DNA of 64,000 bases. Source: an uncultured Methylopila sp. GTDB lineage: Bacteria; Pseudomonadota; Alphaproteobacteria; Rhizobiales; Methylopilaceae. The stretch covers positions 1 to 64,000 of the forward strand of contig CABHPB010000030.1 of the NCBI GenBank assembly GCA_902168115.1, in the 5' to 3' direction. The first letter of the stretch is position 1. Each line of letters opens with the position of its first letter. The notes beneath the pieces are model-generated. The model did not search any database. It was not told the DNA's origin and was given only the letters and a program-made list of their open reading frames with translations. The position numbers were made by a program, and so were the translations under genes. Shown here piece by piece: positions 12,015-36,225 of this stretch.

Positions 12015-12241
12015 CGCGCTTTCCGTGTCCTCGAGCGGCGGGATCGCCCCAAGAGGTAGGAGACCAGAGGCCCAACACAAAACGCGCCCGCGGGCGCAAC
12101 GCGCTGGCGGACGTCGATCCCCCATATGCTCCTGGAGCGGGCGACCGTCGGGTTTCTGACCTCGTCAGAGTGGCGGTGACGTACAGGGAAGGATGGCTGC
12201 GGTCAATATTTTGCGCAGCATCAGGTCGGCGGGTGGGGCCT

Positions 12242-30835: not shown

Positions 30836-30989
30836 GAAACGCATCCCCGTTACGGGCGCAAAGCGCAGCGCCTGTCGCGCCCAAGGTCGAACCTGCGGGC
30901 CGATTGTCAAGCGCAGGGCCGCGCCGGCCCGGTGAACCGCGAATGAACGCGCCGGCCATGATGCGTTCAGCGACGGGCCACTAGCTTCG

Positions 30990-31110
30990 ACATCGTTCGA
31001 GGCTGAAGTCCCCGCCCGAAAGGCGCCGGATCGGATTCCCGCCCCTCTCCGCTCCGGATCCTCGAACACCGCCCGGTCGTTGGGAAACGGCCGGGCGTTT
31101 TCTTTTTTTC
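30990..31110 (+). ncRNA. structured small RNA candidate, copy 1
   Basis: No open frame is convincing. The element has an outer stem GTTCGAGG (30995-31002) with CCTCGAAC (31060-31067), a small CGCC/GGCG hairpin (31013-31016, 31022-31025), a hairpin with CCGG/CCGG and CGG/CCG arms closing a 14-base C-rich loop at 31035-31048, and a 12-bp terminator hairpin (31070-31081, 31086-31097) with a U-tract to 31109. Copy 2 has the same parts. The C-rich loop resembles anti-Shine-Dalgarno loops of alphaproteobacterial regulatory RNAs; the actual family is not identified. The 5' end is estimated. Confidence 0.75.
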
Positions 31111-31166
31111 AAGGCGCGAACGGTAGTCTTCCGTCGGGTCGCCAGACCCGGCCGGGGCGATGCGCC

Positions 31167-31430
31167 ATGCATGATCCGTCAGCGCTGCTCTACGCCGCCT
31201 GCCTCTACTTCGTCGCGCCCGTCGCGCTGGCGAGGGTGCTGCTGAGGGCGAGTTGGCGCTCGGTCCTGATCGCCTATGCGATCTGGTACGGCGCGCTGTT
31301 CCTGTTCGGGCTGTCCGCCGCGCCGCGCGTCGCCGAGGCGCTCGGCTGGATGATGATCCTCGCCATGTTCCTCACGATCCCGGCCGTGCCGGTCATCGTC
31401 CTGCTGCTGCGGCTCGCGCGCGTTCGCTGA
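31167..31430 (+). CDS. small membrane protein between the two RNA elements
   Basis: The 87-residue protein MHDPSALLYAACLYFVAPV to the basic end RLARVR has three hydrophobic helices (about 6-24, 30-50 and 57-80). The codon use and GC content match the chromosome. It lies after the terminator of RNA copy 1 and before copy 2. I do not recognise a family. The start at 31167 begins at the first helix; an open frame from 31080 crosses the terminator and is not credible. Confidence 0.6.
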   Translation: MHDPSALLYAACLYFVAPVALARVLLRASWRSVLIAYAIWYGALFLFGLSAAPRVAEALGWMMILAMFLTIPAVPVIVLLLRLARVR

Positions 31431-31519
31431 ACGCGCCCTCCCGCCGCGGCGGCCTTGTCAAATGAACGATCGATGAACCGCGCAGCCATGAGGCGTTCAG
31501 GCCGGGCTCTCTAATGTCG

Positions 31520-31634
31520 TGATGCTTCGAGGTTGATCCCTCGCCCGAAAGGCGCCGGCGCGGATTCCCGCCCCTCTCCGCTTCCGGATCCTCGAAGACC
31601 GCCCGGCCGCTGGGGATGCGGCCGGGCGTTTTCG
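31520..31634 (+). ncRNA. structured small RNA candidate, copy 2
   Basis: It parallels copy 1: outer stem CTTCGAGG (31525-31532) with CCTCGAAG (31590-31597), CGCC/GGCG hairpin, the CCGG..CGG loop hairpin with the same ATTCCCGCCCCTCT loop, and a terminator hairpin (31600-31610, 31618-31628) with TTTT. Against copy 1 the outer stem's first pair changes from G-C to C-G on both sides, a compensatory change. Upstream sequence from about 31475 (CATGAGGCGTTCAG) also matches copy 1 and probably holds the promoter. The DUF429 cassette begins at its terminator. Confidence 0.75.
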
Positions 31635-32437
31635 TGTGATACGCCTAAATCCCAGCAATCTCGGACGCACGTCGGATGCGGACAATCGGCGTAGATCTCG
31701 CAGCTCAGCCTAAGAAGACTTGGACAGCGTCAATCATTTGGACCGGGAATTCGGCTCAGGTTGTGAGCGTGAACGGCGAATGCAGCAATGATGAAATCAT
31801 CGATGCATCTCGATCGGCAGACAAAGTTGGCATCGATTGCCCGCTGGGATGGCCAGATCCATTTGTTAATTTTGTAGTCGATCATCGGAAACTTGAGTTT
31901 AGGATCGACCAGAAAATCGACGGCTGGAGATCGGATTTACTTTATCGTCGAACAGACACCGCCGTGCGGCGAGCTACTGGTCTTATTCCGCTCAGTGTGT
32001 CCGCCGACAAGATTGCCCACCTTGCTATTCGGTGCGCCGGTTTACTCTCGCAAATGACGGAATCTGGCTTAGCCGTCGACCGCAGCGGATTAACAGGCTT
32101 GATAGCGGAAGTTTATCCCGCGGCGTCGCTTAAGCGATGGGCTTTCAAGTACAAGAGTTACAAGAACGAAAAGAAACTCGGTGCTCTAAGCACCATGTTT
32201 GACCGGCTGAAGGATGCTGCGCCCTGGCTTGCATTTGGTACATTCGATGAGATTTGCCGAAGCAACGATGATGCTTTCGACGCTGTTATCGCGGCAATGA
32301 CCGCGCGTGCTGTCGCGATTGGCCTGACGACGCCTCCCGATGAAGAATCCATAGCGCTTGCAAGGCTGGAAGGTTGGATATGTCTTCCGGCTCAGGATTC
32401 ATTTCAGAGGCTGGTCGGATAACAGCCGGGCGTTTTC
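31621..32437. mobile_element. AT-rich DUF429 cassette bounded by 13-bp direct repeats
   Basis: GCCGGGCGTTTTC occurs at 31621-31633, as the end of the second RNA's terminator, and again at 32425-32437. Between lies an AT-rich stretch (three sample lines count 35-52% G+C) holding one gene whose stop is 2 bases before the right repeat. This looks like an integrated single-gene cassette with the terminator half as attachment core, but no integrase or transposase is present in it. Confidence 0.6.
31676..32422 (+). CDS. DUF429 family protein, predicted RNase H-fold nuclease
   Basis: The 248-residue protein begins MRTIGVDLAAQPKKTW and has the DUF429 pattern: IGVDLA near the start with an Asp, GIDCPLGWP near residue 55, YRRTDTAVRR, AEVYPAASLKRW and the acidic SNDDAFDAVIAAMTARAV motif near residue 205. 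Conserved Asp/Glu residues of an RNase H-like active site (D of GVDLA, D of GIDCPLG, D of DDAFDA) are in place. The family is annotated as a predicted nuclease with unknown substrate. It fills the AT-rich cassette and differs in base use from leuC, so it was probably acquired by transfer. A defence role is possible but not shown. Confidence 0.78.
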   Translation: MRTIGVDLAAQPKKTWTASIIWTGNSAQVVSVNGECSNDEIIDASRSADKVGIDCPLGWPDPFVNFVVDHRKLEFRIDQKIDGWRSDLLYRRTDTAVRRATGLIPLSVSADKIAHLAIRCAGLLSQMTESGLAVDRSGLTGLIAEVYPAASLKRWAFKYKSYKNEKKLGALSTMFDRLKDAAPWLAFGTFDEICRSNDDAFDAVIAAMTARAVAIGLTTPPDEESIALARLEGWICLPAQDSFQRLVG

Positions 32438-34659: not shown

Positions 34660-34917
34660 TTAGCGGCCGATATACACGCCCGGACCGTTGTCACGGCGCT
34701 CGACATAACGATCACGCCCGTCGCGATAGACGCGGCGATCGTCGTCGCACACGCGCTCCTTGGTGATGACGGTCTTGTTGTTCTTGATGACGCGCTTCTC
34801 GACCATGCGGCAGTCGCGGTCGGGGCCAGCGCCGATCACGACGGACTGGGCGCCCGCGGGCGCAACGGCGGCGCCGAGGCTCAGGGCGACAGCGGTCGAC
34901 AGGATCAGGGTCTTCAT
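34660..34917 (-). CDS. small secreted basic protein, paired cysteines (1 of 3)
   Basis: The 85-residue precursor has a signal peptide (MKTLILSTAVALSLGAAVAP, cleavage near GAQS) and a mature part with two cysteines, CRMVEKRVIKNNK and KERVCDDDRRVYRD, then an Arg/Asp-rich end with GPGVYIGR. The pattern CRxVxKxVxKN...C...VYR is shared with the protein at 35601-35879, so the two are likely paralogues. They would be periplasmic. The paired cysteines could form one disulfide. No function is known to me. The start is the ATG at 34917; an upstream ATG gives an unlikely N-terminal head. Confidence 0.75.
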   Translation of the reverse strand: MKTLILSTAVALSLGAAVAPAGAQSVVIGAGPDRDCRMVEKRVIKNNKTVITKERVCDDDRRVYRDGRDRYVERRDNGPGVYIGR

Positions 34918-35175
34918 GGGACTCTCCTGTGCTTTCGTCACGCTCTCTCGACGACCACTTGGGTCGCGACGCTGAAAAAGCGTGGAGTTCGAGCGAACTT
35001 CGGATCACGCGCAGCAGTGCGCGCAAGAGCGGTTCGCATTCGGTTCGCGGCCCTGCAGGCCCCCTACTGACGGGGTCGCGACGCGCAAAAATGCGCTGCC
35101 GGCGACGCGGCTACTGCAGAATCAACGACGCGCGCGCGCCGTCGTTCCATCTTTTTCGAGATTCGTCCGGCGAAC

Positions 35176-35415
35176 TCAGTCGAAGCGCGTGCAGCGCGCG
35201 ACGCGGTTCTGCTCCTTCGGCCAGCCGCGCGCATCCTGCGCGAAGGCGACACGGCAGACCGCGGTTGGCCGGACCGGCTGGTAATAGACGCGCGGAACCG
35301 GGCGCTCGTAGACGCGCTCGCGCGTGCGATACGGAGCGTCGGCGGCCTCGGCCGGGGACGCGCAGATCGCGAAAGCCGCAGCCGTCGCCGCCAGAACGAT
35401 GCCGGTACGGATCAT
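35176..35415 (-). CDS. small secreted protein with paired cysteines (2 of 3)
   Basis: The 79-residue precursor starts MIRTGIVLAATAAAFAICAS (signal peptide, cleavage near AEA). The mature protein has an Arg/Tyr/Pro-rich middle (TRERVYERPVPRVYYQPVRP) and two cysteines, VCRVAFAQD and ARCTRF, near the C-terminus. It resembles its two neighbours in size, export and paired cysteines but is too diverged for me to call a direct paralogue. It is transcribed in the same direction as its neighbours, with separate spacing of about 190-260 bp each side. Confidence 0.65.
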   Translation of the reverse strand: MIRTGIVLAATAAAFAICASPAEAADAPYRTRERVYERPVPRVYYQPVRPTAVCRVAFAQDARGWPKEQNRVARCTRFD

Positions 35416-35548
35416 CGTCGTCACCTCACTCAAGCGCAGGCTCACGCCCGCCGTCATGGCGCAAGTCTAGCAAACGCGGCCGCGTCTTGCTGCCGCCTTG
35501 TCGCGGCCTCGCCATTTCACGGACCGATATGGCGCCGCGGACACGAAA

Positions 35549-35578
35549 AAACGCCCGGCTCGCTGGAGCCGGGCGTTT
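35549..35578 (-). terminator. terminator of the small secreted protein gene at 35601
   Basis: A 13-bp perfect stem (35549-35561 with 35566-35578) with a 4-base loop is followed on the minus strand by a T-run. On the plus strand it reads AAAAAACGCCCGG...CCGGGCGTTT. It lies 23 bases past the stop codon. Confidence 0.85.
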
Positions 35579-35600
35579 CATCACTGCAATGTCGGACCGA

Positions 35601-35879
35601 TCAGCGGATCCGGACGCCGATGCCGACCGCCGGCGCGCGACGGCGCGGGCCGACGACGACGCGCTCACGGTACACCGGGCGCGAGCACTGCTGGGTGGTG
35701 GTGACGCGCTTGACGCCGTTCTTGAAGACCACCTTCTTCACCGTGCGGCAGGCGACGTCGGTGGTGGCCGCCGGGGCGACGATCACGCCGTGGGTGGCGA
35801 TCGGGGCGGCGCTGGCCGGGCTCATCGCGAAAGCGCCGAGGATGGCCGCAGCGCCGGTGGCGAGAAGGAAAGTCCGCAT
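35601..35879 (-). CDS. small secreted basic protein, paired cysteines (3 of 3)
   Basis: The 92-residue precursor begins MRTFLLATGAAAILGAFAMS (signal peptide, cleavage near ASAAP). Its mature part has CRTVKKVVFKNGVKRV and QQCSRPVYRERVVVG, which matches the C-R-x-V-x-K-x-V-x-K-N and C-x-x-x-VYR pattern of the protein at 34660-34917, then an Arg-rich end. No family is assigned. It is followed by a strong terminator. The upstream 346 bp, shared with the divergent zincin gene, have no other gene. Confidence 0.75.
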   Translation of the reverse strand: MRTFLLATGAAAILGAFAMSPASAAPIATHGVIVAPAATTDVACRTVKKVVFKNGVKRVTTTQQCSRPVYRERVVVGPRRRAPAVGIGVRIR

Positions 35880-36225
35880 GTCACGTTCTCCTGAAACTTT
35901 TCTTTTGGTCCGAGCGATCGACGCACGCCGGGGTCCGCTAGATGCGACGCCCGACTTGAACCGAGCCTGAAATCGACGTTCATGACGCATTCACGCCGCC
36001 ATTGCGACGCAAACGAGCGGATCGCCATCTAGGGCCCACGACGTGTTCGTCGAGTCGCCGGCCCTTGCGGCGTCCGGTAAATCCAACGCACGCATGACCG
36101 CCGCCCTGCGCCCGACGCAATTAAAGCCGACCACAGCCGGGCGCTTGATCGACGCGCGAGACAGGAGGATGTTGGTCTTGGATAAAGCGCGGGTCAGTTC
36201 GATGTTGGGGGCGTCGGGAGCTGCG
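35880..36225. other. 346-bp intergenic region between divergent genes
   Basis: I see no gene. It should hold the promoters for the secreted-protein gene (leftward) and the zincin gene (rightward). An AGGAGG at 36163-36168 sits right before an ATG (36169) and near TTG codons that are in frame with the zincin, so an earlier zincin start is possible. Confidence 0.4.

Follow-up and report, generated by a model that had tools for sequence, protein, structure and literature searches.

Known Multicopy and C-Loop Small RNAs

LhrC of Listeria monocytogenes is described as a small RNA (sRNA) that exists in several copies, is induced under envelope stress via a two-component system and uses CU-rich target sites (PMC4132741). 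GsrN of Caulobacter and the GsrN-like RNAs of Rhizobiaceae are presented as stress sRNAs with an exposed C-rich loop near the 5′ end, which in the Rhizobiaceae is bordered by a small hairpin and by a stem containing the 5′ terminus; such genes are preceded by a sigma-EcfG promoter and are mostly found close to the EcfG/PhyR genes, and GsrN is reported to act by antisense binding through the C-rich loop (PMC5869019). The Xanthomonas RNA sX13 is described as a strongly structured sRNA whose C-rich loops act on G-rich mRNA motifs (PMC3771888). The present analysis concerns two tandem RNA elements, copy 1 and copy 2, in a stretch of 64,000 nucleotides (nt) from an uncultured Methylopila sp. (contig CABHPB010000030.1 of assembly GCA_902168115.1); this whole stretch is called the window. 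Judged by comparison of related genomes, the two copies almost certainly belong to a real sRNA family. We regard it as a new family that resembles the known multicopy, stress-driven C-loop sRNAs, with a predicted pseudoknotted terminator loop and an apparent recruitment to a wider envelope-type regulon.

The likeness to LhrC lies in the presence of several siblings in each genome, as seen throughout the 13 genomes of the window's genus. A conserved box stands directly upstream of 28 of 52 copies here and would be a candidate site for a response regulator. Unlike LhrC, the RNA has one nearly invariant loop and a probable pseudoknot. With GsrN it shares an alphaproteobacterial host and a C-rich loop near the 5′ end, whose exposure is predicted, but it differs in its copy number. 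sX13 is likewise a structured sRNA with a C-rich loop; the antisense mode is here only proposed. Listeria belongs to a phylum unrelated to Methylopila, and Xanthomonas is a gammaproteobacterium. An EcfG-like promoter (GGAAC-N15-18-CGTT, a spacing that we assume for sigma-EcfG) was found within 120 nt of none of the 52 copies, and no EcfG/PhyR genes were noticed among the listed RNA neighbours, which were inspected by eye with no dedicated search. Closer in taxonomy are AbcR1 and AbcR2, sibling trans-sRNAs of Hyphomicrobiales, and the earlier note on this DNA, written from the letters alone, had named them as a parallel. By Rfam the window copies are not AbcR: neither AbcR1/AbcR2 nor other Rhizobiales families of Rfam 15, among which we take AbcR/ar15 to be, matched the RNA copies at the gathering score, and none was credible up to E 5. 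On balance, we lean towards osmotic/envelope-stress sibling sRNAs that act in trans via the loop, like LhrC and GsrN.

The Two Copies in the Window

A search of the own genome with copy 2 showed that both copies are alike far beyond chance (E 2.9e-30, 88% identity). They contain the same parts in the order already noticed from the letters, namely an outer stem, a CGCC/GGCG hairpin, a hairpin with a C-rich loop and a terminator. The compensatory change in the outer stem was also seen again, with G-C as the first outer pair of copy 1 and C-G in its place in copy 2, and what had been called shared promoter-like sequence turned out to be an exact box, TGAAC-N6-TGAAC-N16-GTTCAG, before both copies. 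The features are as follows, where R1 is a covariance model built from the five own-genome copies and ORF stands for open reading frame.

30933..30970, + strand: activator-type box of copy 1, TGAAC-N6-TGAAC-N16-GTTCAG, exact (backward control 0), position conserved
30982..30987, + strand: -10-like TAGCTT of copy 1, from an alignment of 28 promoters
30995..31108, + strand: RNA copy 1, predicted transcript including the terminator; 121.2 bits with R1, of which it is a training sequence; has relatives
30995-31002/31060-31067, + strand: outer stem of copy 1
31009..31012, + strand: pseudoknot linker strand of copy 1, UCCC, predicted to pair with GGGA at 31082-31085
31036..31048, + strand: C-rich apical loop region of copy 1, TTCCCGCCCCTCT
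31070..31108, + strand: intrinsic terminator of copy 1, stem 31070-31097 plus T-rich tail, from a terminator scan
31167..31430, + strand: ORF of 87 codons between the copies, membrane-protein-like by eye, no Pfam match
31463..31500, + strand: activator-type box of copy 2, exact match
31512..31517, + strand: -10-like TAATGT of copy 2, from the alignment of promoters
31525..31639, + strand: RNA copy 2, predicted transcript including the terminator; 117.7 bits with R1, also a training sequence of it
31525-31532/31590-31597, + strand: outer stem of copy 2
31536..31540, + strand: pseudoknot linker strand of copy 2, AUCCC, predicted to pair with GGGAU at 31613-31617
31565..31577, + strand: C-rich apical loop region of copy 2, TTCCCGCCCCTCT
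31600..31639, + strand: intrinsic terminator of copy 2, stem 31600-31628 plus tail, from the terminator scan
31676-32419, + strand: DUF429 protein gene, between copy 2 and the leuC-like gene

The ORF between the copies is probably outside the RNA unit. At the same locus in another genome (L107 in G012), two RNA copies begin just 201 nt apart. By folding energy alone, copies 1 and 2 stand out only mildly (z -2.15 and -1.57), and the minimum-energy fold of copy 2, when folded alone, differs from the family structure. The support for the predicted RNA structure is comparative, not energetic.

Family Size and Distribution

In the own genome, the 13-base loop TWCCCGCCCCTCT was found at exactly five places, all of them RNA copies, and the backward pattern at two. 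The search with copy 2 recovered copy 1 and two further copies at E below 1e-9. The own genome contains five copies of the RNA family. R1 was run on 18 genomes of the taxonomic family and matched all 13 genomes of the window's genus (the Methylopila/Hansschlegelia group) and none of the five in two other genera. Out of 54 matches, 52 were kept, and two weak ones in G006 (L149 and L150, about 30 bits) were dropped. Each genome has between 2 and 11 of these 52 copies. The maximum of 11 occurs in G009, an assembly of 88% completeness and 5% contamination, where L147 and L148 have the lowest scores of all. The scan of relatives with a covariance model, which had been proposed as a check, returned homologues that keep the stems and, in nearly all, the loop. 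What had been taken for a small-RNA pair stands as an RNA family with conserved stems, loop, box and terminator; as a pair it does not stand, given the copy numbers.

A second model, R2, was built from the 52 copies for searches of the order and the class with stricter filters, which weak relatives could escape. In the order, it matched 13 of 397 genomes, all in one of 141 genera, where 9 of the 11 copies of G009 were recovered. In 385 genomes of the class, just two weak matches appeared beyond the own genome, in one genus (35.9 and 35.1 bits). The weak matches outside the genus, L302 and L303, were dropped as well. Like L150, they align without part of the loop hairpin and owe their match mainly to the terminator, and L149 has a different loop sequence. 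Among named genomes, a pattern scan gave 62 stretches, and R2, run on 61 of them, found six copies: four in Chelatococcus sambhunathii S14 and one each in Methylopila turkensis and Hansschlegelia zhihuaiae. Methylopila and Hansschlegelia are placed in Methylopilaceae by NCBI. The loose pattern GGCGN{6,18}CCGCCCCTCT was about as frequent as its backward control and therefore uninformative, and none of three pattern matches in viral contigs fits R2.

It had been stated that the copies match no named family, and this agrees with Rfam 15, which gave no match at the gathering score at either copy and none credible up to E 5; at eight further loci only three tRNAs were matched. Elsewhere in the window, positions 12076-12128 (- strand) match the ffh sRNA, RF01793, with 59.9 bits. 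No description of the RNA family was found in the literature searched, a search mostly outside subscription papers, and it gave no paper on small RNAs of the Methylopila/Hansschlegelia group.

The copies occupy several syntenic places that are kept between species (gene names beyond Pfam results were assigned by eye). The window locus reads lemA, RNA (one or two copies), leuC. At another locus the RNA is located between moaE-side genes and a class IV aminotransferase, beyond which an OmpR-type regulator follows. Other copies are found between hupB and nuoA, near genes of a solute-binding protein and transporter, and near a PQQ dehydrogenase.

Conserved Structure and a Predicted Pseudoknot

In the alignment of 52 rows, all 33 base pairs show two-sided changes, and 93.0% of cells are paired. 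The covariation is 0.532, compared with 0.190 after shuffling and 0.036-0.083 with slid partners; the alignment was fitted to the model, so the counts lean towards it, yet the difference is large. The apical loop is the most constant part, with columns 63-68 invariant in 52 of 52 rows. The ten-base C-rich loop CCGCCCCUCU (CCGCCCCTCT in DNA) is present in 49 copies and GCCCCTC in 50. A coding function is not borne out: the RNA lengths, taken modulo 3, cover every class, and even the most widely open frame is uninterrupted in just 41 of the 52 copies.

An extra pairing outside the model was found between the C-rich linker before hairpin 1 and the G-rich loop of the terminator. The mean number of anchored Watson-Crick pairs is 4.63 versus 4.17 when the loops are redealt (0/5000), and 4.55 versus 4.11 for the 42 unique rows (0/5000), with shuffle controls that leave relatedness in. 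Four or more such pairs can form in 50 of the 52; the two exceptions are L139 and the second L133 copy. The telling cases are L135 (AUCUCC/GGAGAU), L147 (UCCCU/AGGGA), L152 (GCCCC/GGGGC) and copy 2 of the window (AUCCC/GGGAU). Because this pairing covaries, the RNA is probably pseudoknotted via the linker and the terminator loop. Pairing of the apical loop with the terminator loop was considered as well, but it gave no signal (4.23 Watson-Crick pairs versus 4.24 shuffled), and the linker is preferred. What the earlier note had seen is larger than it first appeared, namely a multicopy family with a predicted terminator-loop pseudoknot and a common box.

Promoter Box and Probable Regulon

Upstream of 28 of the 52 copies, the box stands at a distance of 23-27 nt from the outer stem. 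Over its 16 positions, 15 of these boxes are exact, seven have one mismatch, four have two and two have three. It is mostly followed by TAnnnT, with the T, the A and the final T present in 24, 27 and 22 of the 28 aligned promoters, respectively. For four second tandem copies, the box reported is the one that belongs to the first copy; among them, by eye, only that of L107 has an exact box of its own.

The own genome contains three exact, three one-mismatch and two two-mismatch sites, and none for the backward control. Of the six sites with at most one mismatch, four lie before the RNA, in one case with a small intervening ORF; of the other two, one stands before a small GY-rich ORF (L162, by eye) and one before an Hpt-domain protein (L163). 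Among 121 sampled Hyphomicrobiales genomes, the exact box occurs in 56 and the backward control in none. When 28 of 30 box loci (L272-L301) were inspected by eye, about 19 were closely followed by a protein, mostly small, with a signal-like N-terminus. Some of the box-associated, exported-looking proteins have curlin-like repeats (by eye). In the window, a two-mismatch box (35956-35993, - strand) precedes a small ORF at about 35601-35879 (- strand) whose N-terminus is signal-like, and further small exported-looking ORFs are found at 34660-34941 and 35176-35457 (- strand). These small ORFs near 34660-35879 (- strand) are possibly in the same regulon as the RNA.

TTCA-N7-TTCA is given as a candidate site of FeuP in Sinorhizobium meliloti (PMC3616915). 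TGAA-N7-TGAA within the box is its reverse complement, and GTTCAG gives a sense half. Osmotic stress is described as the usual condition for activation of the FeuP/FeuQ system (PMC12714254). Since the box contains the FeuP-candidate half and FeuP/FeuQ is linked to osmotic stress, we infer a FeuP-like activator. Control of the RNA copies by a stress-type response regulator is likely; FeuP itself is a slightly favoured candidate for that regulator, by motif likeness and with no search for a feuP gene made. At four other loci (L123, L124, L125 and L141), direct repeats like GACAG-N5-GACAG, which we take to be PhoB-like, lie upstream of the RNA, and at the first two of these loci the RNA has genes for a histidine kinase and a regulator (clusters c45 and c4) next to it. 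Some RNA copies may answer other two-component systems.

Proposed Mode of Action and Alternative Explanations

In the proposed mechanism, the two elements would be genes of a multicopy family of trans-acting sRNAs of about 115 nt. Most copies would come on together when an activator, probably a response regulator of the FeuP type that senses osmotic/envelope stress, binds TGAAC-N6-TGAAC-N16-GTTCAG. Each RNA would form an outer stem around a small hairpin and a hairpin displaying CCGCCCCUCU. The loop of the terminator hairpin would fold onto the linker and hide a second C-run, leaving the apical loop as the sole exposed C-rich site. This loop would bind mRNAs at G-rich stretches, likely close to the ribosome binding site, and Hfq, which is present in all 13 genus genomes, would be available as a helper. 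Structure, pseudoknot covariation, promoter box, terminator, copy number and distribution are supported by the sequence comparisons; expression, the identity of the regulator and the antisense step are what we infer. Antisense action through the apical loop has, in our estimate, a little better than an even chance.

Several findings pull the other way, in addition to the alignment fitted to its model, the relatedness left in the shuffles and the FeuP assignment by likeness discussed above. There is no box within 400 nt of 8 of the 52 copies, and L148 (43.5 bits) is without the usual loop. A consensus scan of the window region found no sigma-70 -35/-10 promoter, although both terminators were found; the missing consensus is expected if the box replaces the -35 element. 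The exact complement of the loop, AGAGGGGCGG, is rarer than its backward control in 12 of 13 genomes, and in the exception (G009, 24 versus 19) eight of the 24 are RNA copies. The sites examined for targets came from 60 regions, made up of 59 non-RNA sites plus a stretch containing three decamers; they include no non-RNA sites of G009, G011 and G013, and only part of those of G008, G010 and G017, the last being the genome with an incomplete site list. Among the 59, two contexts recur and neither holds up. The idea that the C-rich loop targets mRNAs, put forward in the earlier note, gained no backing from these perfect complements, and no conserved target emerged among the sites examined.

The first recurring context is a 5′ untranslated site before a gene that we take to be cyoA. 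A cyoA relative exists in all 13 genomes, but of the 12 whose site lists are complete, only two close ones, the own genome and G015, have the decamer there; the cyoA-like start was located at 5 of 15 loci, and the decamer is missing there in L259, L260 and L264. It was rejected as a conserved target. The second context (L201/L239) lies inside a coding frame.

The same lack of enrichment and of a conserved perfect antisense target among the sites examined would suit a different function, in which the RNAs are protein decoys: the decamer CCGCCCCUCU, on different scaffolds, would bind an RNA-binding protein that the copies titrate. Variation is much lower in the loop than in the stems, and some loci repeat the decamer in a different predicted fold. 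A second CCGCCCCTCT, on the same strand and 127-132 nt after that of the RNA, is present between hupB and nuoA in the own genome and G015, and also at another locus in each of G015 and G017. These additional decamers (L153, 3366-3375, - strand; L128; L133, after the second copy; L234, with two of them) do not share the predicted fold of the RNA, and G017 has a further hairpin with the decamer loop upstream. This is suggestive, from four loci, that the decamer may be read independently of its scaffold. CsrA is the classical protein for such RNA decoys. It was not found (PF02599) in any of the 13 genus genomes by a search whose control was positive in 3 of 14 named genomes, and no candidate protein is at hand. 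Each RNA would also expose a single site, unlike CsrB-type sponges, which expose more than one. We consider decoys unlikely. An extension, in which CCGCCCCUCU is a portable recognition element for a dedicated RNA-binding protein, shown by several scaffolds under several promoters, is quite unlikely; if true, several stress signals would feed one RNA-protein regulatory node new to bacteria.

Very unlikely, in our view, is a 3′-end element, a structured terminator that stabilises or processes upstream mRNAs and from which the free-standing copies were derived. It draws on the locus common to all 13 genomes, which reads cyclophilin gene ... coaD, small ORF, RNA, gyrA, with the cyclophilin cluster upstream in 13 of 13 and the gyrA cluster downstream in 10 of 13. 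In 12 of the 13 the RNA sits behind the small ORF, whose stop lies within it: in eight genomes at offset 9 from the RNA start, and in the other four at 22, 60, 60 and 70. The box is found there 141-212 nt upstream in 12 of 13 copies, before the small ORF that ends in the RNA, a count that for L116 and L130-L132 assumes an inner start codon. The remaining copy, L134 in G011, has no small ORF, and its box stands directly before the RNA, as in the rest of the 28; moreover, a plain stabiliser needs no invariant loop.

A cis-acting leader (riboswitch or attenuator) of the following gene is extremely improbable: the next genes in the window (DUF429 and leuC-like) are on the same strand, and a simple ORF caller places the next ORF on the same strand for 19 of the 52 copies, but in 33 of 52 it is on the opposite strand, and therefore most copies are not leaders, downstream genes vary by locus, and a terminator ends both window copies. 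A repeated mobile element of MITE or REP type with no RNA function is just as improbable. The copies are dispersed, 11 of them in one genome, as this reading would have it, but they show compensatory changes in every pair, conserved boxes and syntenic positions kept between species.

Implications

The sRNA family is well delimited, with 52 copies, a structure, a promoter box and a candidate regulator. The box is reused before an mRNA that carries the RNA in its 3′ end and before free-standing RNA genes. The probable pseudoknot that ties up the terminator loop, together with the decamer on several scaffolds, makes the question of what reads the loop directly testable. Taken together with the wider occurrence of the box, this suggests a genus-specific RNA that was recruited into a more widespread envelope-type regulon.
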